64,000 nt of DNA from Bullera alba (taxonomy: Eukaryota > Basidiomycota > Tremellomycetes > Tremellales > Bulleraceae), in the NCBI GenBank assembly GCA_001600095.1, contig BCIX01000002.1:620001-684000 (forward strand), given 5' to 3'. Under the pieces are notes generated by a model, which saw only the letters and a list, made by a program, of their open reading frames with translations, was not told the DNA's origin and ran no database searches. Below are positions 12,401 to 58,771 of the stretch, piece by piece (position 1 is the stretch's first letter; every line of letters begins with the position of its first letter). The position numbers were made by a program, and so were the translations under genes.

Positions 12401-12528
12401 GAAAAGCTCGAATAGGTCGAATAGCTCGAGGAGATCGACAACTTCGAAAAGCTCGAAAAGCTCGAAAAGCCGAAGAGCGGAAAAGCTGGAGAAGCTGGAG
12501 AGATAGACAAGGGGACTTCGACGTGTAG
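9404..12528 (+). CDS. Large predicted mitochondrial protein with a repetitive basic C-terminal tail
   Basis: I do not recognise the family. A 65-nt first exon (9404-9468) spliced to 9519 gives an open protein of 1024 residues. The first 20 residues, MRPILRLRLLASKQTSCRSQ, have the Arg/Leu/Ser-rich, acid-free composition of a mitochondrial presequence, and only this start keeps the long exon in frame. The body is helical-looking and mildly PPR-like (for example MISLLSKFGATTQVESLYAE), so an organellar RNA-related role is possible but inferred. From about residue 905 the protein becomes Arg/Lys/Ala-rich with ARK and GRE triplets, encoded by 9-bp units such as AGCTCGAAA, ending DRQGDFDV. Nothing like this tail exists in neighbouring genes; it looks like a late minisatellite expansion. 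A long single exon is also unusual for this intron-rich window. Confidence 0.75.
12220..12500 (+). repeat. degenerate 9-bp minisatellite inside a coding exon
   Basis: Units of the form AGCTCGAAA / GGTCGAGAA recur in frame, perfect at 12310-12360 and 12455-12475 and degenerate elsewhere, encoding runs of A-R-K and G-R-E. Because the unit is three codons long, copy-number changes keep the frame. The array forms the C-terminal tail of the predicted mitochondrial protein. Confidence 0.85.
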
Positions 12529-24004: not shown

Positions 24005-27000
24005 TTACTCGGCCCCGATGACAAAGACGACGTCGCTAGGTCTGACAAAAAGCACTCTAGGGTTTTCGAACCCTGTGAACGTACTGCCAATCCCCCAATC
24101 GCCCACAAAGGGACTAGTACTCCGTTTCCTCAAGCCCTCCACGCCTAATTGATTATGCCCAAATCCCCCGGATACAGGTGGTAGACCGAGACCTAAACCC
24201 ATGAGATGGCTGTTCCCGGAACCAGGTGCAGTGTTGTTACGATTTGGTTTCCGCTTGAGACCCTCTCTTATCGATTCGATACGGCGTTGTCGATTGTGCC
24301 GAACCTCTTGTTCTGCGGGGGAGGGATTGTGTCCGAATTCCAAAAGGTCCGTCTTGTGGAAATAGTGAAGTCCATCTTTGGATCCGCTAGGCAATGTCTC
24401 CACACCCAGTCTATCAGAGTCTTCCACCTCTACCCCCACCCAAGGCCCTTTCGACTGAAAAGGGTCTTATCAGTAAAGTGCCTCGAAGGTCGCGCAATGG
24501 GAGCCACTCACTCCGTCCAGATGACCAATGTACTTGATGCACGCCTTGAACCTCACCCTCCGCTTGTCCAGGGAAACAATACACGGAACGCCGATATTCA
24601 GACTGACGCCTTTCCCCTCGAACGGCCTCAGACCCTCTTCCAGCGACTTCTTCGCCAACACCCCGGGAAGCGGTTCGGACCGTCGAGGGGGGTCGAATGC
24701 CGATGCTGGGTGGTAGTTCCGGCTGCTGAATGACGCGGCGGATCTCGTACTGGAACTCGAGACCTTTCTCGGGATACGATGGATCGTCACTGGCGGTGGA
24801 GGTGGCAGCGTGATTGGAATTGGCATTGGCGCCTTGGTCGGCGAGGAAGAGAATGTCAAGCTGCTAGCTGGCTGTGATCCCATTTCAGAGACATCAGACC
24901 CGTCCCGCCTGATGATGGGCTCGATTGCCGGTAATCCAGATGATAGCCGGGGTGTCCGTGCCTCGGAGCCATCTTCAGTGGTGGACGAAGAGGGTGACCG
25001 AACCGATGCTTTGGATAGATTGCTGTGCGAGGGTGGTGGAGCAGTTTTGACAGGTTTGAGGGGCTGTGTGGGAGGTTGCATCCGAGATCGAACGGAAGAT
25101 GTGGATGCCACAGAGGGATTCCGGATCCGAGCGGACGCCGTCGTTGACAGCCCAGAGGCTTTGGCAGGCGAGGCGCTTTTCGAGGTCGGAATGCGATGGG
25201 AAGAGGGCGTTTCAGGAGATTTTGCCGATGTCGCTTGCTTGGCTGGGGATTGCGGAGATTTTGCGTTGTTGTTCGTCACGAGAGCTGCCGAGGCCGACTC
25301 TGAGGTCGATTCTGTCTCTGGCTTGGGATCGACAGAAGTTGACGAAGACAGGGGGACCTTCGAAAGTGCCACTGTGCTTGACTTCGTCACTCCTTTGGCC
25401 GTTGGAGTCGGCTTTGCCGCGATACCAGGTGCTCTCGTGGTCACCGTCGTCCTACTAGCTATCGACGGAGCTATCGATGGAGCCCGGCTTCTCATCGAGG
25501 CGGTCGTAGACGCCGATGCTGTTCGCAATCGAGTTTCCGCCGTGGCTTTGGTGACCTCTGGCGTTTTGCGACCGTTGGCTACGGATGTCACTCGGGAAGT
25601 CGGAATGGGCGGCACAGGTGGTCTGACCACTGGGGTTGAAGCCGTCCTCCCTTGGCCGTTCACTTTGACCCGAGGACCAGGTGCAGCTGTTGCTGCCGCG
25701 GTCTTGCTTGCGTTGGCGTTGATACTGGCGACTCTGCTTCGCACAGAGCCTGTGGTCGATGCGCTGGTTGTCCTCAGCCGACTGGGACCGGTATCAGCTG
25801 TTGATGGTACAGGGGGTACAGGGGGCACGGGCGGTCTCGCTACGCGAGTAGTTGATGTGGAAACGGCCGCCTGTGGTGTTTTGGCGGTATTTGTAGACCG
25901 GACAGATGTGATGGATGGTGTTGGCTTCGACGCCCGAGCCGCCGATGTTGCTGTACTGGTAGTCGATGTTCCAGTCGTCTTGACAGCAGGTGTCGATGCA
26001 GTGGAGGGAGTAGTCCTAGCGGATGATGTCGTAGGTATGGTACCACTGGCCTTTGTACCGGGCACAGGTCTCGTCACAAGTGGACGGAGCGGTCCTGACA
26101 TTGACCTCGTGGCGGTAGTCTTGGCGGTTGCATTTGTCCTTATTGAGGCAGTTGGAGACGAAGCCCTTGGAGGCCGTGTCCGCCCAGCCGCGGCTGGTCC
26201 TATTGGCACAGTTGGACCTTGTCTCGCTGCAGTGGGACTCCTCGCCTGTGGACCCGTGGTTGGCGCTGCGGTCTGTGTTGGAGGTCGAGGTCGTGAAGCT
26301 GGTGATCGCCGACTTGCACTCGACACCGTCGAAGCAGAACTGCTCAATCTCAACCTCCTCAGTCCAGACGGATCAGGGGGTGTAGTGGTCCCAGCTCGCA
26401 AAGTAGACGGTTGTGAGGCTACGCTTGCAGTGGTCTGCCGTGTGGCGGTGCTTCTGACAGACGCGCCGTCCGAGGCTGAGGGTCTAGGCCGAGGTTTGGG
26501 CAGAGCAGAGCGAGGCGAGGCGCGGGATGAGGAAGGTGTCGAGTTATGAGCGAATCGAGCAGCCTTCTTCGGCGTCTGCGGTGCAGGCAAAGACGACAGC
26601 AGATCATCCACGGGGATCTCAATTTCTGATAATCGAAGATGGTCCGTCAGTGCAATGACCCAAACACTGACGCCGGAATCGAAAGCGCCTCACCATCTGA
26701 AATTTCCTTTAGAGCCCAATTCTCCAGCGAGTCGAATCCCCTTGTGTCCCTAACCTGCATCCACCTCCTCCTGATATGCCCCACCACACCCTCTTTGATC
26801 TGTTCGACCTGTTGTCTACCCCGCGATCGCATCGGTAGAGCCGTTTGTAAAGTTGCAGGATCCACCTTGAGCAATATTGACGAGACGAGGGCTTGATATA
26901 TCCTCGGACCCTCCACACATCCCTGTGACGAGCTGACGATGTTGACTATCTCCTTGCCTATGTTCTCAAGCAGATCGTCGTTGAATCCTTTCCCACTGAC

Positions 27001-29128: not shown

Positions 29129-31572
29129 CTAATGAGTCTCGGCAAGCGCCCGTATCGACTTGAAGTGGTTCGCAGTATGTTCCTTCATCTTGAAGATGAT
29201 CCGCATGTGCTCCATCACTTGCTGCACCATGTCCTCTTGCAAACGCGCCGTCTTGTGTTTGAACTCCTCAAAGCTGTATCGCGATCAGCTTGCACCTCCT
29301 TGATATGTGACCGGCACTCACTCTACTCTCTTCTGCTCCAGTGTCGACTGGAGAGTAGTCACCTCTTGCTGGCTCTCATTTGACATTGTGATGACTCTCT
29401 CCTCCATACTTCCGATTTGACGATTCGTGTCGTTGGTTTCGCTCTCCAATTGCTGTTCAGAATCAGCACCATCCTCGCACGATTTACAACGCGAAGCTCA
29501 CTCTTCTAGCAAGCTCGGCTTGGTCGCTCGCCAACTTCAACTTGACCTCGAGATTGTCACAATCGGCTCTCAGCCCGTCTACTCTTTGACCAACTTTGTC
29601 CAGATCATCCTCCAGTGAGATCTGCTCGTTGGCCAATTCCGAGACTTGCCGCCTAAAGCTCTCGCTGTATGCTTGGAGAGCGGGCTTGATGACTTCGCTC
29701 ATCCTCTGTCCTGACGTCTGCACGTGTAGGATGTCCTCTGTACCCATATCGATCTGGATGTTGTAGTCGACTCCATCTGGTCCTAGAGACGTCTCGCCAT
29801 CGGCCAGCGGCTGGATGATACCGATTTGGTGCCCGAGAGAGGTGTACTCCGATAACAATTGCTCAAACAGGTCGATCATCTTGGTGACCATGAGCTCCTG
29901 ATTGTACGATTGTTGGCTGACTTCGGCAACTTTGGTCCGCAGGTCGTCCAGATTCCGCTTCAAGCTTTCCCTCTCGTGATTCATCCGTTGGACTTCGTCC
30001 GGCGATAGGTTCTGCTCCGCAACTGCTTTCTCTATTCTCGCCAGCTCGGCCCGTTTAGCGATCACATCTTGTTCTGTAGCCGAGTCAGCGTGGAACGACA
30101 GTCGAAGCGGTATCGCATATTCTCACCCTGATCACTTATTAGAGCTCTGGCACGCTCATTGGCAAGGCGTAGTTTTTCAGACTTGGCCCTCTGGGACGTG
30201 ATGAACGTGACAAATTTGGCTTTGTCGCTCATGTAGTCGATGTGCTGGTTCTCCAGTGCCTTGAGTGGTGGCTGCACACGATGTATCAGCGACGCCCCTG
30301 TCCTGGTCTGTCACGGACATACCTCTTGGGATTGTAAATCCTTCAGCTCGGCGTTCAACTTCCGGAACTCGGTCTCTAGCTTTTCGCATTCCTCGAAAGA
30401 CGCTTGAGCGATTTGCTCTGTAACAGGTCAGCATTAGGTATTTCTTTCAGAAAGTGTCCGAGTGATGTTGCTCACCGTAGACATCGGTGAAGGCATCATC
30501 TGCCTCTTGGAACTCTTCGTATCCCTCGTTGTACCATTGGCCATAGGTTATCCTCGCGTAATCCCAGAACTCCCTGTCCTCCTTTTGTGGGTGATCAATC
30601 GGCAGCATTTTGGCCGGTAGAGTCATTGGATCGGTGATGCATTCTGGATCGACCCAGCGCTCGTGTGCCTGTACTCAGGTCAGCCCATACGCCCCACACT
30701 GATGATACTAAATGCTTCCTGGCCTTTACTCACCCGCTTCAACTCGACCAGCCAGCACAACATGGCCAACATCCCAGGGTAGTGTGCCGGAGAACCAGGT
30801 GCTCCCCAGGCCGTCTTGCCGCACGAGTCCATACCGGGGTACCTCAGATCCTTTAGAATCGCAATCGCTGCATCCTCTGGCTTCTTGAACTGTTCAAAGG
30901 CGACCGGATCGATGAACTCGTCGATGAGATATCGGAACATCTGGACAAACTCCTTTTGCGTCGGAGAGGTGAACGTCTTTGCGGTGATGGCCACTGGATA
31001 GTGCGACTCGAGGAGATACTCTTGGACAGTGTTCATGCAGTCGAGTTGGAATTTCCGATCTCTTAGCGGTCTCGTGTCCTGTTTCGAGTGTTGGAGCATC
31101 ATACCCGGTGCCACAGATGCTCGTCCACCTCCAGGAAACACTGAGCTCCGGCGGACACTATAATCACACAGTATAAGCTGAAGATATTTGGATCTGTGAT
31201 GTGCAAAGCTCACCTCCCTGGGGGATTCCGGCTAGGTTGACTGGTTGATGCTCTTCCGTACATCCCACCATCACCCCTACTGCCGCTTGGGAGCCCGACC
31301 GAGTGGGTCTCCCCTCTCAATGGTCCCATTCCACTGTTTCTAAGCTGGTCCTGCGAGCTCGAGTGCGATAGAGCCGGTTGCGAAGATGGCCCCGGCATGA
31401 CGCTCAGCCTCGAGTGACCGGGTTGACTGGGCGCCATGGACAATCTGCTATTACTAGGCATCCTCATTGGACCTTTCTTCATTGCTGATGAGGGTAGCGG
31501 GATGCTGGAGTAGGCTTGACCGTTGCCCATAGGTCCATCAGGGACCAGAGTCCGGCGTCTGGCGGCGTCCAT
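29129..31572 (-). CDS. NDC80: Ndc80/Hec1 kinetochore protein
   Basis: Ndc80 forms the outer-kinetochore microtubule coupler with Nuf2, Spc24 and Spc25. The ATG at 31572 opens a basic, Ser-rich, disordered tail (MDAARRRTLVPDG, SNSRLSMAPSQPGHSRLS) of the kind phosphorylated by Aurora B. The calponin-homology head follows: DTRPLRDRKFQLDCMNTVQE, MFRYLIDEFIDPVAFEQFKK, AILKDLRYPGM, HYPGMLAMLCWLVELKR. The rest is coiled coil (ESLKRNLDDLRTKVAEVSQQ and similar) with a final FKMKEHTANHFKSIRALAET-H before TAG at 29129-29131. About seven introns. Identification is firm. Confidence 0.94.
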
Positions 31573-42175: not shown

Positions 42176-44680
42176 CTATTTTCGTCGGCGCGGGGCTCTG
42201 CTGTTCTTCGCTTTGCGCTGAAATTTCGTTGGCATGATGCGACTGCAGGCGATACCTTGAGAGAGACCACTCACTTTCTCTAGATTCCGACGCGAGCCGA
42301 GGATAGCCGAAGGAGACTTAAGCTCTGTTTTGAGCTGCTGATGTCGATAGTGCTGCAACTATTTTGATCAGATACGCGGCCGCGCAGGGAAGAACTCACC
42401 TTCTTTGGTTTGCTGGGTTCGTCCTTTGAGCCATCTGAAGGTTGACCCCTCTTGGATTTTCGCCATTCATCATACCGACCGCTTCTATAACTGGCCGGTA
42501 GGAGTGCCCCACTCTCACTGCGGATCATCTTCTTGTTGTCTGCGCCAACCTCGTTTTTATTGCCAAACTTTTTGGATTTGCGATCCCACTTCAATTGGCT
42601 GGCTTTGCCTGCTCGGACAGCTGATCCCTCATCCTGAACAAGATCCAAGGTAGAAGATCTCATCTGATCCACGAAGTTGGCATCCTTGAGTGAATACCTA
42701 GTCTGATCAGCTACTGACATTGGCCATAGTTGACATACCCGCTATTCTTCTCTGCGCCCTGTTGCCGATGATCAATGTAATGCTCATCGCGATAGGACCG
42801 AGTAGTCTGAGCTAAGTCAGCGAGGTTCGTGCCGAACCTGTCTTTGATTACCTTGACGTCTGTGACCATAGGCTCCTCCTCATCATCGCTTTCGATACTT
42901 GCCAATGCCTTCTTTGGCCGAGTGTCCCTCTGAGCGACAACCCGGCGGCGCGCACTCATGAGATCGACACTGCCTTTCGACCCTCGTTTGCCCAGTTCGA
43001 GAATTGTCTCCTGAGGGGTGAAATTCTGTACCGATGCGAGTAATCTGCTTTGCAGTTGTGCAACTTCGCTGTCGGCCACCGAACCGTATGAGGGATGTTC
43101 GGGAGGCGCAGTCTCTTTGGCGTTAACGCGCTGGCGCAATGCTTTCGAGTTGCGATGAGAGGCGGCCGAAGCTTTCGAGCGCGACCTTTCGAACATGGTC
43201 TGACCCTTCCGCATGACCTGCCTTAGACTGGGCAAATCCGAGGCTGTTTCCTCGAGGGCGCTGATTGACTCTAACTTCTGATCGATAGCGGTTTGAGGGA
43301 TGGTGAAGAACATACCAGATTGATTTTGCGTTATGGGCTGTTCTAAGAAAGTCTCTAACTCCAACAGGTACGGCAACTCCTCCTTGGTGACGAAGGACCA
43401 TGCAGCACCTTTGCGGCCCGCTCTCGCTGTTCTCCCGACGCGATGGATGAAATTGCGGACTCCGGTTGGGAAGTCGTAGTTGATGACGTTGTCCATAATC
43501 GGTATGTCCAGGCCTCGGGCTGCGACGTCCGTCACAATGAGCAGATCTGCCGTTCCGTCGCGGAACCCCGCCAGTTGTTGCTGTCTAGCTATCTGATCCA
43601 AGGATCCGTAGATGTGATTGACGCGGTAACCGACGGTGACCAACAAGTGTGATAGGTACTCGACGTGGTGCTTCGTGGACACAAATATGATTGCCTGAGG
43701 CGATTTCTCCGTTTCCTGTCTATTTGTGAGAACTCGCAGATTCGTCTCCAAGATCGCAAGTAGCGCAGCTTCCTTCATAGTTGACTTGACATCGAAAAAT
43801 GCCATGGCCAAATCTTCGGAGATTTTGTGGTCTGCATCTAAGCGGATGAGCAGAGGATTGACGAGACCGGCCTTGGCAAACTCTGCGACAGCTGAGGGTA
43901 GGGTGGCGGAAAAGAGTAGATTCTGGCGAGATGCAGGCAGTCGATGCACGATCTCATGGAGTTGAAGTTCGAACCCCATTTCGAACAGCCTACAGTCAGC
44001 GAAACCCCGATTGGATACTCACCGGTCGGCCTCATCGTAGATGACCATTTCCAAGCTACGAAAATCGAGATTCATCTCCACTGCTACATGCAACAATCGT
44101 CCCGGTGTAGCGATTATGCTGGAGGTGAGCGATATGTCCGTTTCCAGCACTCACATGTCAGGTTGCTCCGATAAAGCTTCGAATTGCTTATCAAGTCCTT
44201 CTCCGCCCATGATCAATGCCCAAGTCAAGCCCTGACTGTCCTTGCCCGGCCCTCGGGCAGCAGAACGACCTAGGTCTTTGCCAACCTTGAGGATCTGCAT
44301 CGCTAGCTCCCTCGCCGGACACAGGATCAAAGCCCTAGTTCCTCGCTTTGGATTGTGCGCGGTCGTCAAGTGCTGTATGAGGGGTATGAGGTATGCTAGT
44401 GTCTTTCCAGAACCGGTACGAGCCATACCGAGAACGTCACGCGGCGGGGTTGACAGTGTCGAGGGGAGGGTGTTCCGCTGGATTGGTGTCGGGACTTTGA
44501 ATCCCCGCAGAGTGAGAGCCTTCGAAATGGTCGCGTTTACCCCTGCAAGTACTTAGCAAGGCGATGGCATGATTCTGACTCACCCAGAGCCTGCCATGCG
44601 CCACCCCGAGCTTTGGCGGCAGTAGATGATTCTCCATTCGCGATAGGCATCCATCCTGCGGTTGCGACCGAGGCCGGCAT
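42176..44680 (-). CDS. DBP10: Dbp10 DEAD-box RNA helicase (60S ribosome biogenesis)
   Basis: Dbp10 (DDX54) is a nucleolar helicase of large-subunit assembly. Visible motifs: Q-motif region [19 protein letters not shown], motif [17 protein letters not shown], motif Ia PARELAMQI, motif II with [18 protein letters not shown] split by an intron near 44000, motif [19 protein letters not shown], motif [20 protein letters not shown], motif [20 protein letters not shown], motif [13 protein letters not shown]. The C-terminal family extension is present ([28 protein letters not shown]). The start at 44680 ([19 protein letters not shown]) is chosen over in-frame upstream ATGs because the conserved part begins soon after it. 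The 3' end is less sure: one or two small introns lead to [20 protein letters not shown] and TAG at 42176. Confidence 0.9.
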
Positions 44681-47388: not shown

Positions 47389-49401
47389 ATGTCAAGCGGA
47401 AGAAACATGGACGAGATGACGTCGAGCTTTCGTGCGCTGTACAGAAAAGCCGCCTCCGCCGTAACAGACCTATCTTCCGATGCTGGGACAAACCGTATCC
47501 CGGACAAGGCGCAACATCTTGGCGATTGGATTCGTAGCTGGGGCTCAGATGAAGAACCACTATCTGCGAGGTCCGTCCGAGTATTGGTGCAACCTGGATG
47601 GGCGGTCAAGAAGTATCATGGACAGCAATCTCGAATACCTGCCGGTGAGTCATGCATCATTCAAAGTCCAGGGCTCTTCATGATACCACATAGACGCGAG
47701 CCCGTTCGACCTCATTGTGAATATCACTGGCATTGGCGTTGTCGACCGAGAGCTTTCCGCTGTTTCCCGAACACAGCGGGCTCTGATCCTCGTCGCAAAG
47801 CGTAGGTGCCCGAACCTTCTGGTCGAACTGACGCAGCCAGGATTTGCTTCTTTGCCAAGGATGCCTATAGTGGAGGGAACAACCTCATTGCCGCCACTTG
47901 CGGATAGCGGGTCTTCTCGTGGCATCTTATCTTCAGAGTTGGCATTCAAGGACTTGACTAAGTTGAAACATGCGCATTCCAACCTCGATTCACGACTTCA
48001 GCCCTTTTGGTCCTCTTCGGCACCCGAACAAGTGCTTGGCCTGAGAATCAAGACTCGGACCAACGGGGCAGGGCATGGATCGGTCTCATCAGCAGATTCA
48101 GCAAACATCCTGGTCGACACAACTGTCACAACCGATTCCCAAGGTCATTTTGTGAAGAGCCTGGTCATACCCTGGACGAAGCTGTGCACTGATCCGGCAT
48201 CCGTTCCATACATCTTCAAGCAGCATTCCGGCACTGCGAGCACGCATGACGTTCAAAACTGGGAATTAGACATTCAGATCAAAGCTGTGGATAGCTTAAT
48301 GGAGGATGAACCATCCTTGATCGACGAGCCGCCTGCTTCGGCGCCGTCCTCGACGGAGGCCACCTACTATATGCATGTAGCAGAAACGGCAGGGATCAGG
48401 GTGATCTCCGATTTGGTGAGTTAGACTACTTGTCTCACTGACGCATCTGTAGGATGATACGATCAAGCATAGTGACATACTTGCCGGCCCTAGAGAAGTC
48501 TTCAGGTGAGCATACTGAGATGCGGCTGGCCGCTTAAGGATCATACAGAAACGTCTTTTGTCGCCCTTTGGAAGATGTAGCGGTGCCGGGCATGAACAGC
48601 CTTTACCAGAAACTTGCGACCTGCGGTGTCTCTGGCTTTCACTATGTTGTGGGTATCCTCGTTCCGGTTGCAAGGTGTCTCACTGATCACCTGCAGTCGA
48701 ATTCACCTCTAGAGCTTCTCTCCACTATCAACGACTTTCTTCGTCTACACGCATTCCCGCCCCCTGTGTCCCTGAGAGTGGGTCGTGAAGGAGATATTGA
48801 AACATCCACTGACGTCTTTATCCAGCTGAAGCTCTACGGCGGCCGTTCATTAGTGGCCAGTCTTTTTGACTCTCCAGGTGATCGAAAACGCCAGGTTGTC
48901 AACAATATCTTCGATTCATTCCCGGACTCGAAATTCATTCTTATCGGGGATAGTGGGGAGCAGGACCTGGAACTCTACGCCTCGCTAGCTATAGACCATC
49001 CCCGTCGTGTTTTGGCCGTCATCATCCGAGACGTTACCAGTTGTCGAGCCCTAGAACTCCGACAGCTGCCGCTGACGGCCCGACGGACACCATCCCGGCA
49101 ATCTTCCGCCAGCTCTGTTCAAAGCTTCGAATCGATACGGGGATCCGGTCTCGGGAATCCTGTCAATAGTCGCGGACAGGACGGCCAAGACGCGGATTCG
49201 TTTTCGACAGCCTTGCACGAGATGCAGGATCTCACATCAGCACAAGAAAAGATACTCAAACGAGCTGCTCATTGGGACGAGCGAGTACTTCTGGCTCAAC
49301 ACACGATACCTGGCCACATTCCTCTCATCTTCTTCGAGCACACTTTCGAGATGGAAGACCAGATTGTTCAGTTGGCCAGGGCTGGATTGAATATTACGTA
49401 A
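47389..49401 (+). CDS. APP1: App1-like actin-patch phosphatidate phosphatase
   Basis: App1 dephosphorylates phosphatidate at cortical actin patches during endocytosis. The ATG at 47389 opens MSSGRNMDEMTSSFRALYRK; the first intron (47646-47693) joins RIPA to DASPFDLIVNITGIGVVDRE. The DUF2183 catalytic region carries the HAD-type motif DLDDTIKHSDIL (DxDxT), GMNSLYQKLATCGVSGFHYV, SNSPLELLSTINDFL, GDRKRQVVNNIFDSFPDSKF, ILIGDSGEQDLELYASLA. A Ser-rich tail ends VQLARAGLNIT with TAA at 49399-49401. Three or four introns. UBP6 starts only about 150 bp downstream on the same strand. Confidence 0.9.
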
Positions 49402-49548: not shown

Positions 49549-51836
49549 ATGTCGCAAACCGTGAACGGTGAGCTGATCGAGCTGGAGCACTCGGGCTGCT
49601 AGGCTAAATAGACAGTATCCATCAAACACGCCGGGAAGGCACAGCCGTTGGTCGTCGAGATCGGCGCTGGGGTGCTTCCTTTCAAAAGCGCGGTCTATCA
49701 AATCACTGGTGTACCTATAGGTATCTGCGGCTCCCGATATGGAAGACGTGTTGCAGCTGAACCTGCTACTTTAGAGCGGATGAAGGTCATGCTGAAGGGA
49801 GGAGTTCTGAAGGTTGGCTGCGTGGAAGTTGATTAGGCAATCGGTTGACTGGAGCCTAGGACGACACGGATCTGAGCAAATCAGGGCTCAAGGAGGTGTG
49901 TATCGCTGTCGGAGCACGATGTTTGTCGATACTGAACGTTTCATCATAGGGCCAGGTTATCACAGTTGAGTGCACCCCACGATATTGTGCTGAAAGAGCA
50001 GGTAATCGGAACAGCAGGCCCGCTTCCGTCTGCACCAACACCGATATCGTTCAGTGGGTCTCGCTCTTTTTCAACGGCTTTGGAGCTCATGCATGTAATG
50101 CTAGTTGAGGATGCGGACGATGGCGGGGCCAGTAAACTCGTACGTTCCTTCCTAAATCACCGTTGACCAGAAAGTCTCTCGATCCTCCAGGACTCGTCAA
50201 TCTAGGTCAGACTTGCTATTTGAATTCAAGTTTGCAGGTTCTGCGAGCTGTGCCTCAAGTCGACCTTGCTCTCCGGGGGTGAGCTCCAAGCATTCTGCCT
50301 GCGCTGACTAATTAGATACTCTGGGACAAACTCTATGGAAGGACAGTTGACTGCCACCATGAAGAATCTATTCTCTGGGATGGGCCAAGCTACCAGCGCT
50401 GTGCCTCCATTCTTACTTCTGGCGAGTCTTCGAAATCTAGCTCCTCAGTTCGCCGAGCGAGATCAGACGGGTGGATTTTCGCAACAAGGCAGGTAACGTG
50501 CAGCCTCGACGGTCTGCTGATCTCGTGTCTAGACGCCGATGAAGCCTGGACTCAGCTGATCTCTGCTCTGCGAGCGTCTTTGAGGACTGACGAAGGAGAA
50601 GGTATCGTGGACAGGTACATGTCCGCAGAAATCACACGCACGTGAGTTCCTACACACAGACTTTTTCTAATCACTCCAGGCTCTCTTGCGCAGAAGCCGT
50701 GAATGAGGAGCCGTCTGTGGGTAGAGAACAGATACTCAAATTGGAGTGCAACATATCTATTTCGACCAATTTCCTGTTGTCCGGTATTCTGGACGTGAGT
50801 TCGATGTTACTGTAGCTCTTGCTGCTGACATATTCACCGCTTTTAGTCGCTAGATCAGCAGATTGAGAAGACGAGCCCTAGCCTTGGACGTACTGCGGTA
50901 TACAACCAGTGCGTGTTGTTCTCATACCAGTAACTAACACGATCAGGAAGTCGCGCTTGTCTCGGCTGCCAACTTACCTTACCGTACATATGGTGAGTGT
51001 ATTTGATTTTCGGCTGTGGTTGACGTCGGTCCAGGTCCGGTTCTATTGGCGAAGGGATATTCAGTGAGGTTCGACATCCACTTCTCAGCTGACGTCAAAA
51101 GGAAAAAAGCCAAAATTATGAGGAAAGTCAAATACCCACTGCAATTAGATGCGATCGACCTGGTACGTAAACATGCTCGTCAAGTGCTGAATCTGCAGGC
51201 AACCGACGAGCTTCGTGCACGACTTCAGCCCATCAACACTGAAGTGAAACAGATCATCAAAGCACGAGATGAAAGGGCTGTACACGCCAAACGTCAGAAT
51301 TATGATGTATCGGGCGAAGAAGGCCGGCTGCTGGAAGAAAAAGAGAAGATTATGGAAATGGCCTCGAGCCGTGGTGTGGGCGAATCGGGAACCAATCCGT
51401 CGGGCATGTACGAACTATGCGGTAGGTGCCTGACAGTGAGCATCGCTGATGCTTTCAGGTGTGGTTACCCATAAGGGCCCATCGGCAGACTCGGGTGGGT
51501 AACTTGGGAGACGAGATGGCGCTGATTCCAGGTCATTACATTGGCTGGACTCGCAAAGAGGCTACCCTCGTAGCATCTGGTGAGGAAGAATGGTACAAGT
51601 TCGATGGTGAGCATTTCGATGCTGAACGACGCTGATCATCTAGACGACAAGGTATCGATCGTCAAGGCGTAAGTGTTGTCCTCGATGCTTTCTGCTGACG
51701 TCCAGAGATAAGATCCTGGCGATGGATGGCGGAGGCGAAGACAGCGTGGCATACATCCTTCTATACAGGTATGTGCATAGCGGCTCACAGTGTAGACGTG
51801 TAGAGCTTACAAGGCAATAGATCGATGGTCGCGTAG
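49549..51836 (+). CDS. UBP6: Ubp6/USP14 proteasome-associated deubiquitinase
   Basis: Ubp6 docks on the proteasome through an N-terminal ubiquitin-like domain and removes ubiquitin from substrates. A 16-nt first exon (MSQTVN) joins VSIKHAGKAQPLVVEIGAG and the VFKSAVYQITGVP-type ubiquitin-like domain with ERMKVMLKGGVL. The Cys box is GLVNLGQTCYLNSSLQVLRA near 50.2 kb; YSGTNSMEGQLTATMKNLFS-type and TQLISALRASLR blocks follow. RFYWRRDIQ then splices to KKAKIMRKVKYPLQLDAIDL, and the His box GPSADSGHYIGWTRK is split by an intron near 51500. It ends DSVAYILLYRSMVA with TAG at 51834-51836. The gene has about a dozen small introns, which makes simple ORF reading fail. Confidence 0.9.
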
Positions 51837-52053
51837 AGCGAGACCTCTGTCCGGCAAGAGCGTCGGTCCTCGTCGAGATTTGCAGAGTCTGGACGCGTGT
51901 AGACGATATACCGCGACCCGCTTCCTGGGTGACCTGCTTCTCTCAGACGCTGTAGCGCTTGAGCACTCGGACTTGTACTTCACTCGGCGATTCACACACA
52001 TGCATGCACTGTAGACAATCTGCACAGTTCACAATAGACCCTGGTCCTCGACA

Positions 52054-52067
52054 TGAAACATGAAACA
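52054..52067 (+). promoter_or_regulatory. two abutting pheromone response elements (TGAAACA x2)
   Basis: TGAAACATGAAACA is two perfect head-to-tail copies of the 7-bp Ste12 binding word known from yeasts and many fungi. They lie about 640 bp upstream of the pheromone ATG. Confidence 0.6.
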
Positions 52068-52177
52068 GCTGAGTCCAGCTCTTGGTTTCCGGTCGGCCCC
52101 TTTTCGGGATAAATGAGGATAAATGCCGGCCGCGCTCAGCCGTGCCGCGGATCCGGGTTCTGCCGGAATGCCGATCG

Positions 52178-52184
52178 TGTTTCA
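52178..52184 (-). promoter_or_regulatory. pheromone response element, inverted (TGTTTCA)
   Basis: TGTTTCA is the reverse complement of TGAAACA. Like the second upstream copy it directly adjoins a CAGCTG-type word (TGTTTCAGCTG versus TGAAACAGCTG). Confidence 0.5.
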
Positions 52185-52596
52185 GCTGTGGCCTCGGTCT
52201 TTTTGTCTATGAGCGCGGGCGGTTCCCAATCCTTTTTGTACTCGAGTAAGCGTGATCACTGCGTGATCCATCCTCGATCCGGACCGCATGGTCATTCCGA
52301 TCGTCTTGTGAGAGCTGGCCTCAAGTCTTTTGTCCTTGCGTCTCCTTGACTTGGCGAATTCTTGTTGCCTTTTGTTCTTATCTCGGGAATTTGGCAGAAC
52401 GACAGATTGCCAACTCGCTCCAGCTTGCCCCTCGATGTTCGCGTTTTGCATCCTATTGTGCTCTCGCAGACTCTCGCTATCGCTATTGTTCTCGATCCTG
52501 AGCTGACCATTACATGAAAAGTCTCTTTTGTCATGTAGCGAGCACTCCTCCTATTGTTCTTACACCTCGACGACGGCCTCTGGACCGCTCGACGTC

Positions 52597-52604
52597 TATA
52601 TAAG
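52597..52604 (+). promoter_or_regulatory. TATA box of the pheromone gene
   Basis: TATATAAG lies about 100 bp before the ATG and is followed by a CA/CT-rich leader lacking ATG codons, as in highly expressed fungal genes. Confidence 0.65.
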
Positions 52605-52702
52605 GCGGCGACTTGACATCGTTTCTCCTCGTCCAACTCATCACTCACAACACCAAACCTCTACTCTACCCAACCAAACCAACCCAAACCCAATCCACTA
52701 CA

Positions 52703-52927
52703 ATGGTTCAACAAGCTACCCCAGTCAACGACGAGCGAGACCCATGGAGAACCGGCATGTCCCCTATGTGCGTCATCGCCAACTCTGCTCCCGCTCCAGT
52801 CAACGACGAGCGAGACCCCTGGAGAACCGGCATGTCCCCTATGTGCGTCATCGCCAACTCTGCTCCAGTCAACGAGGAACGAGACCCGTGGAGGACTGGA
52901 ATGTCTCCCATGTGTGTCATTGCCTAA
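52703..52927 (+). CDS. Lipopeptide mating pheromone precursor with three tandem peptide units
   Basis: An intronless 74-residue precursor starting MVQQAT and made almost wholly of three repeats (DNA units starting 52721, 52796 and 52865). Each contains PVN(D/E)ERDPWRTGMSPMCVIA. The last unit ends the protein with the CaaX box CVIA, the signal for farnesylation, AAX cleavage and carboxymethylation; the first two continue with NSAP. The ER dipeptide before DPW matches the charged pair where basidiomycete precursors are commonly cut, predicting a mature DPWRTGMSPMC peptide of 11 residues, S-farnesylated at Cys. C. neoformans pheromones share the CVIA end but carry one peptide per precursor. The nearby STE3 receptor and Ste12 sites support the identity. 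The DPW boundary and the release of internal units are inferred. Confidence 0.93.
   Translation: MVQQATPVNDERDPWRTGMSPMCVIANSAPAPVNDERDPWRTGMSPMCVIANSAPVNEERDPWRTGMSPMCVIA
52721..52924 (+). repeat. three-copy in-frame pheromone repeat (25, 23 and 20 codons)
   Basis: Across the 20 shared codons, copies 1 and 2 differ at a single base (CCA/CCC proline). Copy 3 differs from copy 2 at ten positions, nine of them synonymous and one D-to-E outside the predicted mature peptide. Confidence 0.95.
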
Positions 52928-53976
52928 GACAGTGAGTGCTTCTCTTGCTCCACTTGTTGCTAGTGGGCGCTGATACACTGGCGTAGCTTGCACTTCAACT
53001 GATTGGAGATCAGTCCAGTCTTGATTATGCCGGAGCAGAGCTTTTCCAAGGACGTCGAGGATAGTTACGAGTATCGTACGCGATGCATATTTTTAGTACC
53101 CAGACCGAATCTTGTCTCAGTGATGATCGTTGAGCAATGAGCCTTCCTTGATCCTTTACAGTTGCCCACCGCGATATACTCAAGGGTCAAAGACCACCTG
53201 TTGCAGGACTAGTTCGTTGCTGGTTCGTTGCGTTTGTAAGAGAGCCGCCTTGGAGTTCAGGTCTCTCAGATCCGACTCTCATGATGCCCCAACCGATTGA
53301 TACCGCCTGGAGCAGACATGTGAGTGATGTGACCACTCACCACAGTAATACTTTACTGGACTACGTACGGCGGGTCATTCTCAGAGTACATTTATCGTTC
53401 GTCCCGATGTTCAAACTTATAAGGACTTGGCTTTCTGGCATTCAGACTTCCAGGCTCAGTGATATACATCTTGTACACGAGTCACGCATTGATTCTGTGT
53501 GGGTGTTGGAGAAGGCCTATGCGCTCGGCTAGACCTAGCTAGACTGTAACCCCAGCAGATCCCAGTATTCCTCCGGCATCCAAAAAGCCATGACTCGAAC
53601 AGAGCAGGCAGCAGCCTTCCGCCGACATTGACGTCTGGAATACTCTGGATCGGTCTTCTTCTTCTTATCAGTGGTGTCCCAGATGATCATCGCGAGCAGT
53701 CGCGTGGCCGCGTGAAATGTGGAACTTTTGTCGTACGACGATTTCAGACCTGCCAAAATCGAGTTTGACCCCAGCGAACGCTCTTTCAAGATGTAATCGG
53801 ACCCAATAGTCGTAGAGTAGCTGGACAGACAGTAACGGCACAAGGATCCATGGGAGTCAAAGGGCGGATCACATTACATTGTAGTTGAGTCGCACAGCAC
53901 AGCGGCTTGCATGAGCAGCGCTGGGAGGCCGGCTGTAGGCTGATTGCATTCTCATACACAGAAAATTACATTATGA
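52928..53976. other. 1.05-kb interval between pheromone gene and STE3
   Basis: This lies between convergent stop codons. A possible 3' UTR intron of the pheromone transcript (donor GTGAGT at 52931, acceptor near 52986) opens it. I looked for a second pheromone copy or CVIA/CaaX coding sequence on both strands and found none. No other gene is recognised. Confidence 0.45.
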
Positions 53977-55278
53977 TTACACGACTGACCTCTCCACCAT
54001 GATGGGTATACCTTTACCACCACTAGATTGACTTTCAACGTCATGGCCCGCGTGGAAGATTTCGCTCTTGTCATCCAAGACGACACTCGTGCGTTCGTGG
54101 TCCGTATTGATGGGGCGACCGTTGGGCGAGATGGCTTTGGATCCAAAAGTCGGGATACGAGCAGCTTCGGGTTTTTGAACTCTAAGGGTATATGAGTTCA
54201 GCTCCTGTGTCTCCAGCAATACTCCATGACTCACGAGGGCTTTCGAAGGCCTAGTCGAACTAGAAGGGCAAGGACTTTCTCATATGCTCCGATGTACTCG
54301 ATGACGGCCTCCTCACCCAAACCAAAGAACACGAAGAAGATAATAGAGTAGAGCGGGCCGACGTAGAGACCGAAGACGTAGGCGAAGTTTCCCACTGATG
54401 GAATCAGTGCTTCCGGAAACTGGGAGATGTGATTGAACTGATCGTGTACAGTGTTCCAGGAGACGTATGGCTTGATCTGCTGGTCCGAGACTGAAGTGGT
54501 GATTCCAATGACATCCTGGGATATCAGGACAGTGATGTCGCACAGCGCCAAGGCGATGAGGCGAAGGTATCGACTAACACTGAGGCCTGTTTCCGATGAT
54601 GCGAGAATGGCTCGGAACTGCATCCGGCGCACCAGAAACCATCGGACCGCGAGCGCTGTGATTATGTTAGTTCCAGATGCCGTTATGCAATTGGAATTCC
54701 AACTCACCCGCATAGATCATAGATGCGACCGACATGACCAGGGGCACGACGAATCGGATGACGATTCCGGGCCAAGAGATATATGTCGGGATGCTGCAGC
54801 CGATGGACTCTACCACATCGTATCGATGACCCTGTACCACATATAGCAGTGGTAGCATGAGCAGGGGGAAAGCAAAGCAGAGTGCTGCCTCCAGCCACAT
54901 CCGACGGGTTCGCTCGGTGGCCGAAATGACTGATCGTCGAGTTGATGCGACTGCCTCCAGTCGACGCATTTGCGCTAAAGAGCAAGCGGGAACGGCATAA
55001 GGTATGATCTGCAAGATCCGGCCCGCTGACGACTGGTATCAGCTGACAGGTTTCGCGCACAAGTCGTTCGACTCACAGACATCGCACCATGCCGGAGCGA
55101 GATCCGCGTAGTTGTCCGCCCATACTAGGGTGTTGACAAATATGACTAGATTGGCTAGGGCCACCCAAAAGATCAAAGCGACTGTGGCGACATTACGTGC
55201 TCTCCAGTGCCAGGGAATTGGAAGGATGACGGCCACGAATCCAATGAAACTCCAGAATGGGTAATCAGGATGGAGCAT
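53977..55278 (-). CDS. STE3: Ste3-type seven-transmembrane pheromone receptor
   Basis: A fungal class-D GPCR for a lipopeptide pheromone. The ATG at 55278 opens MLHPDYPFWSFIGFVAVILP, matching the family start, then WHWRARNVATVALIFWVAL, LVIFVNTLVWADNY, and WCDV. The intron after WCDV joins GRILQIIPYAVPACSLAQMR. Next come ERTRRMWLEAALCFAFPLLM, YVVQGHRYDVVESIGCSIPT, WPGIVIRFVVPLVMSVASMI, AVRWFLVRRMQFRAILAS, RYLRLIALALCDITVLISQ, and the last membrane helix YVGPLYSIIFFVFFGLGEEA. The last intron joins LGLRKPS to a hydrophilic C-terminal tail of about 65 residues ending MVERSVV. An in-frame TTG extension to 55326 is not needed. It is convergent with the pheromone gene and divergent from STE12. Mating-type allele identity cannot be told from this window alone. 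Confidence 0.94.
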
Positions 55279-55807
55279 GTTGATCGTGGTAGATGAGCGA
55301 TGACTGCTTGCGGTGAGAGATATCAAGAGAAGGAATCATCATGTTTCCCAGAGCTTTTATGCACAGCCGTACTCGCCTATCCATGCAGCTCTAAGATGCA
55401 CCTGCTCTGCTGACAAAAAGCGCCTGAACAAAAGAGCAAGAGCCAAGATGGGAAGAAAGAGAACAGATCAGGATATTTCAGGCGGCAGGGTCGTTATTGT
55501 CCGCATTCAAGCGCGCCTATCAATTTCCGAATGTTGCGGTAGGCGGGCGTCCTCATCGTTTTGGTCAGCAGGGAAAGTGACCCCGTTTCATCCATGTGTG
55601 TTAGAGCAAGTCGTTTCAGACTCTCCAGGCGTTTCGTGTCTTTCTTACCGTACAAGGACGCGCACCAACATCCCGATACACTACCGCAAGATTGTGTCAG
55701 AAGACCAACCTCTTGTTACCGCGAACTCCACACGCTCGTAGTTCAGGAGTGCTTTGCTTGTTTCGACCAGGTCGGAACCAGAAACGACAAGCCGGAGCGA
55801 CGAAGTG
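55279..55807. promoter_or_regulatory. divergent promoter STE3 / STE12
   Basis: 529 bp between the two start codons with no coding evidence. It holds two CGTTTCA words (TGAAACG on the minus strand, the yeast Ste12 variant site) at 55584-55590 and 55612-55618, 28 bp apart and facing STE3. Coordinated pheromone induction of both genes is the natural reading (inference). Confidence 0.55.
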
Positions 55808-58771
55808 ATGTCTGCGGACGAGCGCAACGATAGATGGGCCGACGAAGACTCAGACAAGGTCGCCGCACCACACGGCATGTCATCCCTCGGGGGTGAAGGG
55901 TAAGTTCATTGATGATACCAATGGGCATGATCGGGTCAAGTTGACTTTATCCATCCCTTAGATCGTCCATTCTCGACCAGCTCCAGCTTTTCCCCCTTCC
56001 CGTGCCCCCAAATGTCACACCCCGTCCCGTGACAGCCGAAGAGAAAGCTCGGATTGATACATTGAGCGAGCTGCAATTCGTGAGTGGGAGCAGCATCTCG
56101 CGTCTCGCGACGTGGTCAGAATGAACATGGCGGGCTTACCCGTGCGTGTCACATCACTGACTACGCGTATATAGTTCCTGGCAACTGCCCCTACGCGTTG
56201 GAACCAATCTGAATCGACTGTAAGTTCAGCATCTCCATCTACATCAGCGTTTCACCTGTGCAGAGCTGAAGTTATCCTCCATTTAGCCCATGTCAAATCT
56301 ATGCAAGTTTCAGTTACCAAATGGAGAGTATGTATCATGTGTCCTGTGGAATGGCCTGTACCACATCACTGGCACAGATATTGGTGAGTCCGTGCTTACT
56401 ACCCTCATCCTTCACTCTCCTATCGACTGGACTTCTTGATCTCAAACAGGTCCGATTTTGCCGAATCCGGTAATTGACCCCAAACACGATTCTTTTGTCT
56501 CGACCTGGCATTGCAGCTTACTGATACGTCTCAGTGCGAGCGCTTGCATTCCGCTTCGAAGCCTTTGGCAGACCCATCAAAGCGACCAAGAAATGGGAAG
56601 AAGGTGTTTTCTCCGATCTGAGGAATCTCAAGCCTGGAATAGACGCATGCCTGGAGGAGCCAAAGTGAGCCAGGACAGACCTCTTGATCACCAGGGCTAG
56701 CGATGCTGATGAAGGGCTCAGGTCTCCGTTGTTGGACTTCCTGTTCCGCAATGGATGCATCCGAACGCAGAAAAAGGTGATGATGCTGTTCACGCGTTTC
56801 ATGCATAGGCTGATTGCATCATTCGTTTCATAGCAAAAGGTGTTTTACTGGTGAGTCACCCCCAAATCTCACTCACGAGGTCGATGTCATCCTGATTGAT
56901 TTGCTAGGTTCTCTGTACCGCACGACCGACTCTTTCTCGATGCACTGGAGCGTGACCTGAAGAGGGAGAAGATCGCACAAGTGCCCACCACCGAAGTTGT
57001 CGGAGAACCCGCTCGGAGTTTCAGGTCAGTCTGTGCGGGTCCCCTATGTTTCGACTTGGTGCTGAGACGATCGAACCTAAAACAGGTATGATCCGAGGAG
57101 AAGTCTGTACGAGCAATTCGCTGGACAGAACCCCGGCATGAACACGTCGTTAACAGTGAGTTAGCGAGCCGTTTAACTGTGCACGGATCTCACGCTAACG
57201 CCACGGGCTTCCTACAGACTCCCGCTCCCGACTACGGTTCTGCCGCATCTGAGGCAACCAGAGCCAGCCCTACGGCCGACGCACCGACCGACCAATACGC
57301 CTACGGCGGAGGCATGTCGAGGGAATCATTGAGCGGCGATGCTGCCGTGGGGAGGACAGCTGCATCGTTCAGAGAATCGCCAGTAGAGGGTCCGACCGTG
57401 GCCTTCCAACGCACATTGTTTGAAGGAAGTCCCGCCTACAAACGACGCAGAGTGCGGTCAAGACAGGGCACTTCACCTTCGGTCATTGAGGATGGAGCAA
57501 GACGCGGTAGCCCCGGCCCTCAGAGAGGATATACACCTCAATACCGGGATCAGACAGCCTCACCAAAGTATCAGCACCAGCAGCTGAGAAAGGTCTCAGG
57601 TGAGCGTCAAGTCCGTCATGCTAGGATACCGCGTCCGGCATCACAATCTATCATGACAATGCTGACGACAATCAGGTGGGGCAGACCGCGAAGGCAGCCC
57701 TCTTGGAACCAAGCGCGAACGATCAACATCTGCGATGCCGGAAGAAGGTGAAAAGGTCTACGTCTGTGCTGTGGATTTCTGCCGACGTCCATTCAAGCGC
57801 CTGGAGCATCTCAAACGACACGTCCGCACGCACACTCAGGAGCGGCCCTACGAGTGCCACAAATGCACTCGCACGTTCAGTCGACAAGACAACCTCGTCC
57901 AACATCTCAGAACTCATGGCCGCGTGGAGCAGCAAGGATTAGGTGGGACGCCTGGTCCGAATCCCGGCCTCGGGATTGGCACACCTCCGCCTCGAGAAGG
58001 TGTGGAGTACTATGTGGCTACTGCTGGACCCAACAACGGAGTCGCGTCGTACCGATGGGCGACTGCAAGTCCAGCTGGAGAGAACTACCCTCTGGCTAGC
58101 GATCCGTGAGTGGCTTCTAGGGCAAACTCGACAGCACGCTGACAGTTGGCTATCAAATCAGGCACATGCTACCCTTGCCTAGCTGTCGGTCTGCTGGCAG
58201 TATGCCACCTCCTTCGCTGCCCCACTCCTCGCGACATTCAACAGTCCCACCAGATTGGCCGTCCATCGCGATCGAGTCAGCCTTCACTCCAAACCCGTCG
58301 CCGTATACCCACGCCACGTCATCTATCCGCCGATTCCGGTCTGCGACACCGTCTGGGCTAAGTAATTTGGCTGTTCCCGTCCAAATGGACCAAGTACCGA
58401 GGTGGGGAGGATCTCTCCAGCATTCCAATCATTCGCCAGCGCTAGATCTCGGCCACCGACATTCCTCTGGAAACGTATATCCCCCTCAACCTCCACACAT
58501 CATCACAAACGGGTTGTCCATGTCGAATCATCATGCCACACCACCAATGACCTATCCATACTACAGAAGTACGACAGGCGACGAGATCGTCGGTTATCCT
58601 GGTCAACCCGGTCTACATGAGAACGGAGTTATGATGCACGGCTCGACCTCGGCGCCAAGCACAAAGACCGAGTACATCAACGTTCCCGTTCAAGCGGGTA
58701 TGACGAATGGTCACGGTCAACCGGGTTTCGAAAACGGAGAGGCATACGTCCACTCTGCCACGACGGAGTAA
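55808..58771 (+). CDS. STE12: Ste12-type transcription factor (STE homeodomain plus two C2H2 fingers)
   Basis: Terminal transcription factor of the pheromone and filamentation MAPK pathway. The ATG at 55808 opens MSADERNDRWADEDSDK; after introns come PVTAEEKARIDTLSELQF, FLATAPTRWNQSE, LCKFQLPNGEYVSCVLWNGL, YHITGTDIVRALAFRFEAFG, RPIKATKKWEEGVFSDLRNL, a 17-nt exon (56834-56850) encoding QKVFYW, and FSVPHDRLFLDALERDLKRE, together the STE domain. A disordered linker leads to two C2H2 fingers near 57760-57925: C-x4-C-x12-H-x3-H (CAVDFCRRPFKRLEHLKRHV) and C-x2-C-x12-H-x3-H (CHKCTRTFSRQDNLVQH). The tail is Pro/Ser/His-rich and ends YVHSATTE. Zinc fingers are present in basidiomycete and filamentous-ascomycete Ste12 but not in Saccharomyces. 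STE12 is a MAT gene in Cryptococcus. Confidence 0.95.
56776..56833 (+). promoter_or_regulatory. STE12 intron containing two Ste12-type sites
   Basis: This 58-nt intron (GTGATG...CATAG) carries CGTTTCA at 56795-56801 and again at 56824-56830, 29 bp apart, nearly the same spacing as the pair in the STE3-STE12 promoter. The second copy overlaps the 3' splice region, so splice signals could also explain it. Confidence 0.35.

Follow-up and report, generated by a model that had tools for sequence, protein, structure and literature searches.

A probable mating pheromone gene with three tandem CaaX units at the P/R locus of Bullera alba

The window analysed was a 64,000-nucleotide stretch of contig 2 of Bullera alba (BCIX01000002.1, positions 620,001 to 684,000, forward strand). 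It contained a gene for a pheromone receptor, STE3, whose exons (55278-55077, 55025-54708, 54655-54235 and 54181-53977) were open throughout after removal of the introns. A short ORF, the putative pheromone precursor gene, was convergent with STE3, with 1,049 bp between its stop codon and the receptor gene. These genes and their neighbours were located as follows.

29487..30122, minus strand: NDC80 exon (PF24487)
42714..44018, minus strand: DEAD-box helicase exon, DBP10-like (PF00271/PF00270; gene name from locus comparison, PMC12510652 and PMC13085929)
45198..45971, plus strand: C2H2 zinc-finger exon, REI1/ZNF622-like (PF12756; gene name from locus comparison)
48538..49398, plus strand: APP1 phosphatidate phosphatase exon (PF09949)
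52703..52927, plus strand: putative pheromone precursor ORF, by translation 74 aa, intact, with three tandem units and a TAA stop
53977..55278, minus strand: STE3 pheromone receptor, 381 aa (PF02076, E 4e-48 and 1e-25; from exon joining, homologues and tree)
56302..56689, plus strand: STE12-type DNA-binding domain (PF02200), two exon matches, contig 2 positions 676302-676689, divergent from STE3

The window has 230 stop-to-stop ORFs with a length of 90 aa or more. Pfam was run on 20 of these, and seven had a match with an E value of 0.001 or lower: a DEAD-box helicase, a REI1-like zinc finger, APP1, a fungal transcription-factor domain, BTB, the NDC80 loop and MUN (the last below the Pfam cut-off). 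All but the transcription factor (6/7) are named for P/R loci of Kwoniella (PMC12510652) or Naematelia (PMC13085929). The account of the Kwoniella locus gives a C2/Ync13-like protein, DBP10, REI1, NDC80 and BSP3 with a BTB-type domain (PMC12510652), and that of Naematelia also gives APP1, MUN and BTB (PMC13085929). The divergent order of STE3 and STE12 has been termed constant, and was used for MAT A2 of P. flavescens (PMC4374795). Judged from STE3, STE12 and the neighbours named for the Kwoniella and Naematelia loci, the window is a Tremellales P/R locus. Two long open frames elsewhere in the window, of 1007 codons (9505-12525, plus strand) and 739 codons (24473-26689, minus strand), had no Pfam match at E 0.001.

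A protein search with STE3 scored the 7998 candidates that shared most words with it, and 134 of these were homologues with an E value of 0.001 or lower; the best match among them was from P. flavescens, with 56% identity over the whole length. With this identity the window comes from a species other than P. flavescens, perhaps from another genus. A sequence search of the PDB with STE3 gave no chain at E values up to 1. A tree was built from the query and 27 rows hand-picked from the 120 listed of the 134 matches. In this tree the STE3 of the window joined P. flavescens and two metagenome proteins (support 98/94). It was nested among Tremellomycete receptors (24 rows, 99/99) and stood apart from the group of Cryptococcus and Kwoniella (12 rows, 100/99). 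As part of the best explanation taken as a whole, the locus would quite probably belong to the Papiliotrema lineage of the Tremellales. The mating type is probably A2 (STE3a); this label was given because the compared receptors include those of K. mangrovensis CBS10435 (named A2, PMC12510652) and C. depauperatus (named A2, PMC9296135), the tree rows holding no confirmed A1 receptor.

The precursor ORF was translated as MVQQAT-PVNDERDPWRTGMSPMCVIA-NSAPA-PVNDERDPWRTGMSPMCVIA-NSA-PVNEERDPWRTGMSPMCVIA-stop, and the following features were placed on it and around it.

52199..52531, minus strand: five ACAAAAG/ACAAAAAG boxes upstream of the ATG, putative HMG-box or pheromone-response-element-like sites
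52597..52604, plus strand: TATA-like box TATATAAG, ~100 bp before the ATG
52721..52780, plus strand: unit 1, PVNDERDPWRTGMSPMCVIA, with an internal CVIA at 52769-52780
52781..52795, plus strand: spacer NSAPA between units 1 and 2, by translation
52796..52855, plus strand: unit 2, PVNDERDPWRTGMSPMCVIA, with an internal CVIA at 52844-52855 and one silent difference from unit 1
52856..52864, plus strand: spacer NSA between units 2 and 3, by translation
52865..52924, plus strand: unit 3, PVNEERDPWRTGMSPMCVIA, with the true C-terminal CaaX at 52913-52924
52932..52986, plus strand: probable 3' untranslated intron of 55 nt (GTGAGT...TAG), starting 4 nt past the stop

The original prediction had described three in-frame ER-DPWRTGMSPMC-VIA units, the first two continuing into NSAP and only the last one C-terminal. 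Both the translation and the repeat array bore this out: three in-frame copies of the peptide were present with CVIA at each, the protein continued with NSAP after the CVIA of units 1 and 2, and the CVIA of unit 3 closed it. The details of the units needed correction. The common unit was longer, comprising 20 residues, PVN(D/E)ERDPWRTGMSPMCVIA, behind a leading stretch MVQQAT of 6 residues; the spacers before PVN were unequal (NSAPA versus NSA); and the residue preceding ER was D or E, this being the sole amino-acid variation among the three units. Tandem Repeats Finder, run on positions 50000-56000, detected one array (52721-52924, period 75, 2.8 copies, 87% matches, score 283). The pattern TGYGTNATHGC matched three times in the 64 kb, all inside the precursor ORF, against an expected 0.75; this count is weak on its own because 3 of 100 shuffles likewise reached three, and chance was excluded by the in-frame repeat.

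The ORF was short and ended in CVIA-TAA. In all three units an ER pair was followed by 11 residues through the cysteine; a charged pair such as ER upstream of the cysteine is described as a mark of N-terminal processing (PMC8545103, PMC3068285). The N-terminus was not strongly hydrophobic by hydropathy calculation (best 10-residue mean 1.33 in the first 30 residues). Neither KK, KR, RK or RR nor any lysine was found in the whole 74-aa sequence.

The 603 bp upstream of the precursor held five of the 50 boxes of the window (pattern: ACAAA, up to two further A, then G), the densest cluster in it. Among sliding 600-bp windows, 5 of 1,268 contained five boxes, all of them overlapping this upstream region. 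Upstream elements of U. maydis that respond to pheromone contain CAAAG (PMC3068285). The resemblance of the boxes to pheromone-response elements is suggestive, the motif having been picked after the sequence was viewed. Two ACAAAA(A)G boxes were also located within 160 bp of the STE3 ATG (55413-55434), such boxes being common to the upstream regions of the receptor and pheromone genes.

Searches for relatives of the precursor gave one match in its own genome (19.4 Mb, 7 contigs). Protein searches for homologues found no candidate, either with the whole 74-aa precursor or with a 44-aa two-unit piece chosen to reach precursors of 24-77 aa. These results are weak evidence of absence, because annotation frequently misses pheromone ORFs (PMC6730849, PMC8545103) and because the program requires three shared 5-residue words. 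Pfam gave nothing over its cut-off for the precursor, MFA1_2 falling far below it (E 0.35). A genome-wide CaaX scan, covering the ends C(M/I/V)IA followed by a stop, gave eight matches, versus three for a reversed control pattern, and among the eight only the precursor ORF had an STE3 match nearby. Four of the other seven were without an in-frame ATG, one started three codons before its stop and two were ATG-started ORFs. These two were single-unit ORFs on contig 2, one of 26 codons ending in CMIA (879194-879208, plus strand, ~206 kb away) and one of 33 codons ending in CVIA (1188655-1188669, minus strand, ~516 kb away); both may be due to chance. The claim that the ORF encodes a mating pheromone was supported by the intact STE3 beside it, by the Tremellales P/R genes around it, by the CaaX at its end and by the ER pair.

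The units were also compared at the DNA level. Units 1 and 2, 75 bp apart, were identical at 59 of 60 bases, and unit 3 had 10 differences in 60 bases from either one, nine of the changes being silent and one being the D-to-E change before ER. By the NG86 method, units 1 and 3 had a dS of 1.73, which rests on 13.3 synonymous sites and is near saturation, and a dN of 0.022. When 10 random changes were made to unit 1 in a simulation, a mean of 6.9 amino-acid changes resulted, and one or none was seen in 0 of 20,000 runs. Silence is expected in unit 3, which holds the true C-terminus, so the informative model was one in which unit 3 was restricted to silent change and the internal unit was free. 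Under this simple model, which takes equal mutation rates, the probability of at most one nonsynonymous change in 10 was 0.0007; with both units unconstrained it was 1e-5. CVIA was retained although two of its four codons differed silently between units 1/2 and unit 3; the internal VIA codons had a single silent change, too few to speak for constraint on VIA alone. Because the model with an unconstrained internal unit was rejected (P = 0.0007), selection has probably kept the internal units as peptides. Judged by this divergence, the repeat did not arise wholly recently, nor is it idle. For unit 2 a recent origin is possible, since it differs from unit 1 by one base, and gene conversion may have acted between the units. 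The nearly silent-only divergence upheld the earlier reading of the gene as a multi-copy precursor.

Tandem CaaX precursors are already known in Pucciniomycotina and Ascomycota. Rhodotorucine A (RHA) precursors carry tandem copies with CAAX-like spacers, their processing enzymes being called unknown in 2010 (PMC3068285), and the red-yeast RHA2 has been described as having "tandem pheromone peptides" (PMC3236058). RHA of Rhodosporidium and other Sporidiobolales thus resembles the precursor described here in carrying several farnesyl peptides with CAAX-like spacers between them (PMC3068285, PMC3236058). It differs in belonging to Pucciniomycotina and in having several genes, whereas one gene with a lysine-free spacer, NSAP(AP)VN(D/E), was present here. 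By the title of one paper, R. toruloides is said to have several rhodotorucine A precursor genes per strain; the one match in 19.4 Mb separates the present gene from the RHA family, and several genes are not essential to the architecture. The rust MFA1, a small precursor, apparently has three peptide repeats in tandem, and Microbotryum is cited likewise (PMC10977897). The several repeats in a small precursor are shared with the present gene, but the repeats of MFA1 (also Pucciniomycotina) are merely similar to one another and the three peptides here are identical. Trichoderma HPP1 has three copies (PMC3068285), and the a-factors of Fusarium and Huntiella have several CaaX-like copies (PMC10182648); as here, each copy has its CaaX-like motif and the last one is C-terminal. 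HPP1 is an ascomycete precursor with (LI)GC(TS)VM (CPAX) and two Kex2 sites, whereas the precursor here has PMCVIA instead of that motif and no dibasic Kex2 site. Not every h-type member carries Kex2 sites (PMC3068285).

The relatives compared in the Tremellomycetes have a similar locus and, where a length is stated, short precursors. Kwoniella, Cryptococcus and Tremella have a like P/R locus with STE3 and STE12 as neighbours, and a CVIA end in most. The precursor of K. heveanensis, with 39 aa (PMC2873909), and that of C. depauperatus, with 37 aa (PMC9296135), leave no room for three units, and that of Cystofilobasidium capitatum is 41 aa (PMC8545103). The Tremellomycete precursors of stated length would, by their size, contain one peptide each. 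The Kwoniella species compared have a single MF gene with a C-terminal CAAX, and in Cryptococcus the pheromone copy number was raised through gene duplication (PMC12510652). Trichosporonales have one precursor gene per allele (PMC6730849), Phaffia has two genes with different mature pheromones (PMC5103461) and a pheromone precursor gene is named for P. flavescens (PMC4374795). Tremella precursors are mentioned beside the maturation of rhodotorucine A, and are not called tandem in that passage (PMC3068285). No tandem precursor in Agaricomycotina was found in the open-licence literature searched, supplements and figures being outside its scope. The present gene apparently places a tandem precursor in a new subphylum, plausibly by convergent origin. 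The independence asserted in the original prediction is accordingly plausible, given the short precursors of K. heveanensis and C. depauperatus and the single MF gene of Kwoniella (PMC2873909, PMC9296135, PMC12510652). The rarity of the design had been rated too high, for it also occurs in rusts, Microbotryum, Trichoderma, Fusarium and Huntiella. The different ways in which pheromone copies are multiplied suggest that related fungi took different routes to a higher pheromone dose.

The reading favoured here, and a fairly likely one on the sequence evidence, is that the ORF is the mating pheromone gene of the P/R locus and that its three units would each be released as a lipopeptide. The chief alternative is that prenylation and activity are limited to the C-terminal unit, with units 1 and 2 serving as a long leader or coming off as unprenylated by-products. 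Farnesyltransferase wants a free CaaX end, and the precursor has neither a dibasic Kex2 site nor a lysine at which the units could be parted. Moreover, Trichoderma HPP1 remained fertile after both Kex2 sites were removed (PMC3068285). A leader, however, would have no need of the full peptide and CVIA, which the internal units retain with divergence that is nearly all silent, so three-fold release is favoured and release of the last unit alone has a modest chance of being correct. The internal units might also be freed with tails (CVIANSAP...), unprenylated or otherwise modified, so that one gene would give two kinds of signal. Judged by sequence, cutting might be confined to the PVN(D/E) motif that precedes each ER, leaving CVIANSAPAPVND and CVIANSAPVNE tails. 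This is improbable: the spacer length shifts by one AP dipeptide while the peptide is constant, and the Tremella relatives are lipopeptides (PMC2873909).

An artefact of assembly or a recent duplication, with one or two units in the true gene, was judged slightly less probable still. The 59 of 60 bases shared by units 1 and 2 at a distance of 75 bp would fit it, but unit 3, with 10 changed bases in 60 and a spacer shorter by 6 bases, shows that two or more units are genuine and old. Least probable of all, and very much so, is a repetitive CaaX protein that is not a pheromone and stands at the P/R locus by chance. The database searches yielded no homologue and Pfam gave MFA1_2 only at E 0.35, as such a protein would lead one to expect; against it stand STE3 at 1 kb, the CaaX end, the ER pair, the small size and the fact that, of eight C(M/I/V)IA-stop matches in the genome, this one alone is near STE3.

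With release of all three units as the preferred reading, maturation could proceed as follows. CaaX pheromones are synthesized in the cytosol, and farnesyltransferase requires a free CaaX end. The precursor, which has no evident signal peptide, would be made in the cytosol, where an endoprotease would cut the linkers so that each unit regained a C-terminal CVIA. The candidates are a cut directly between A and N in CVIA/NSAP and a cut at the PVN(D/E)/ER site that recurs in the units, after which the ends would be trimmed. Since no dibasic Kex2 site is present, a cytosolic cut near CVIA/NSAP would be needed for internal farnesylation. Farnesyltransferase, Rce1/Ste24 and Ste14 would then produce a farnesyl-cysteine methyl ester on each unit, a cut at or just before the ER pair would give (ER)DPWRTGMSPMC, an ABC transporter would export the lipopeptide and STE3 of the opposite mating type would sense it. 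The sequence itself shows the ORF, its locus, the receptor beside it, the constraint on the units and the presence of CaaX-enzyme families, whereas we infer that the gene is expressed, that each cut is made and that the peptide is prenylated, exported and paired with the receptor. Each unit probably yields farnesylated (ER)DPWRTGMSPMC-OMe, because an unconstrained internal unit was rejected.

Tremerogen a-13 has 13 residues. The peptide DPWRTGMSPMC, predicted originally as the mature form, is indeed contained in every unit, but by analogy the mature N-terminus may be E instead of D, giving ERDPWRTGMSPMC of 13 aa. Tremerogen a-13 begins with E, and an E start has been proposed for Cryptococcus pheromones too (PMC2873909).

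Families of the CaaX pathway were detected in the genome: prenyltransferase beta at three places, Ste24 at one, Rce1-like at one (two weak exon matches) and ICMT at one. Among 14 control genomes (those named being prokaryotes), Rce1-like matches were found in 11, ICMT in five, M48_N in one and prenyltransferase in none; the Rce1 and ICMT matches are unspecific because 11/14 and 5/14 control genomes also match. Other ways of parting the units were considered. Kex2 processing was rejected, there being no dibasic site, and so was a 2A-type ribosomal skip, there being no NPGP in the precursor. As to alternative splicing of units, no GTRAGT donor was found in the ORF, and the one clear intron falls past the stop. 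Three looser GTRNGT matches (52768, 52843 and 52912) fell on the Met-Cys-Val codons of each unit, and were largely dictated by those codons.

Tentatively, a more specific proposal can be made, which we regard as rather less than an even bet: the tandem CaaX precursor arose independently in Agaricomycotina (Tremellales), and a cytosolic endoprotease cuts after the internal CVIA, before Asn, to give three farnesylated pheromones. If this is true, CVIA/Asn cutting would be a previously unknown step, and a similar one would be required for precursors of the rhodotorucine, rust and h types. A tandem precursor poses a processing problem, since lipopeptide pheromones need a free CaaX end. The present gene adds a compact example from the order of Cryptococcus and Kwoniella, one whose three peptides are identical and which lacks a Kex2 site, and with such a gene the processing question becomes experimentally tractable.

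Other mating-type genes were also located. A homeobox (KN) match lay on contig 1 at 1770038 (minus strand), and a homeodomain-like FQNRRNRKTKGRR stretch was found ~2 kb from it on the opposite strand (plus). This pair probably represents divergent HD1/HD2 genes, which suggests a tetrapolar arrangement in which the HD pair (contig 1) and the P/R locus (contig 2) are unlinked. A further five homeodomain matches were on contigs 3, 6, 7 (twice) and 2. The one on contig 2 (786344-786499, minus strand) was ~111 kb from STE3, and through it some HD gene could conceivably be linked to the P/R locus. A second STE3-like receptor gene was present on contig 4 (1548677-1549225), possibly a Cpr2-like receptor.
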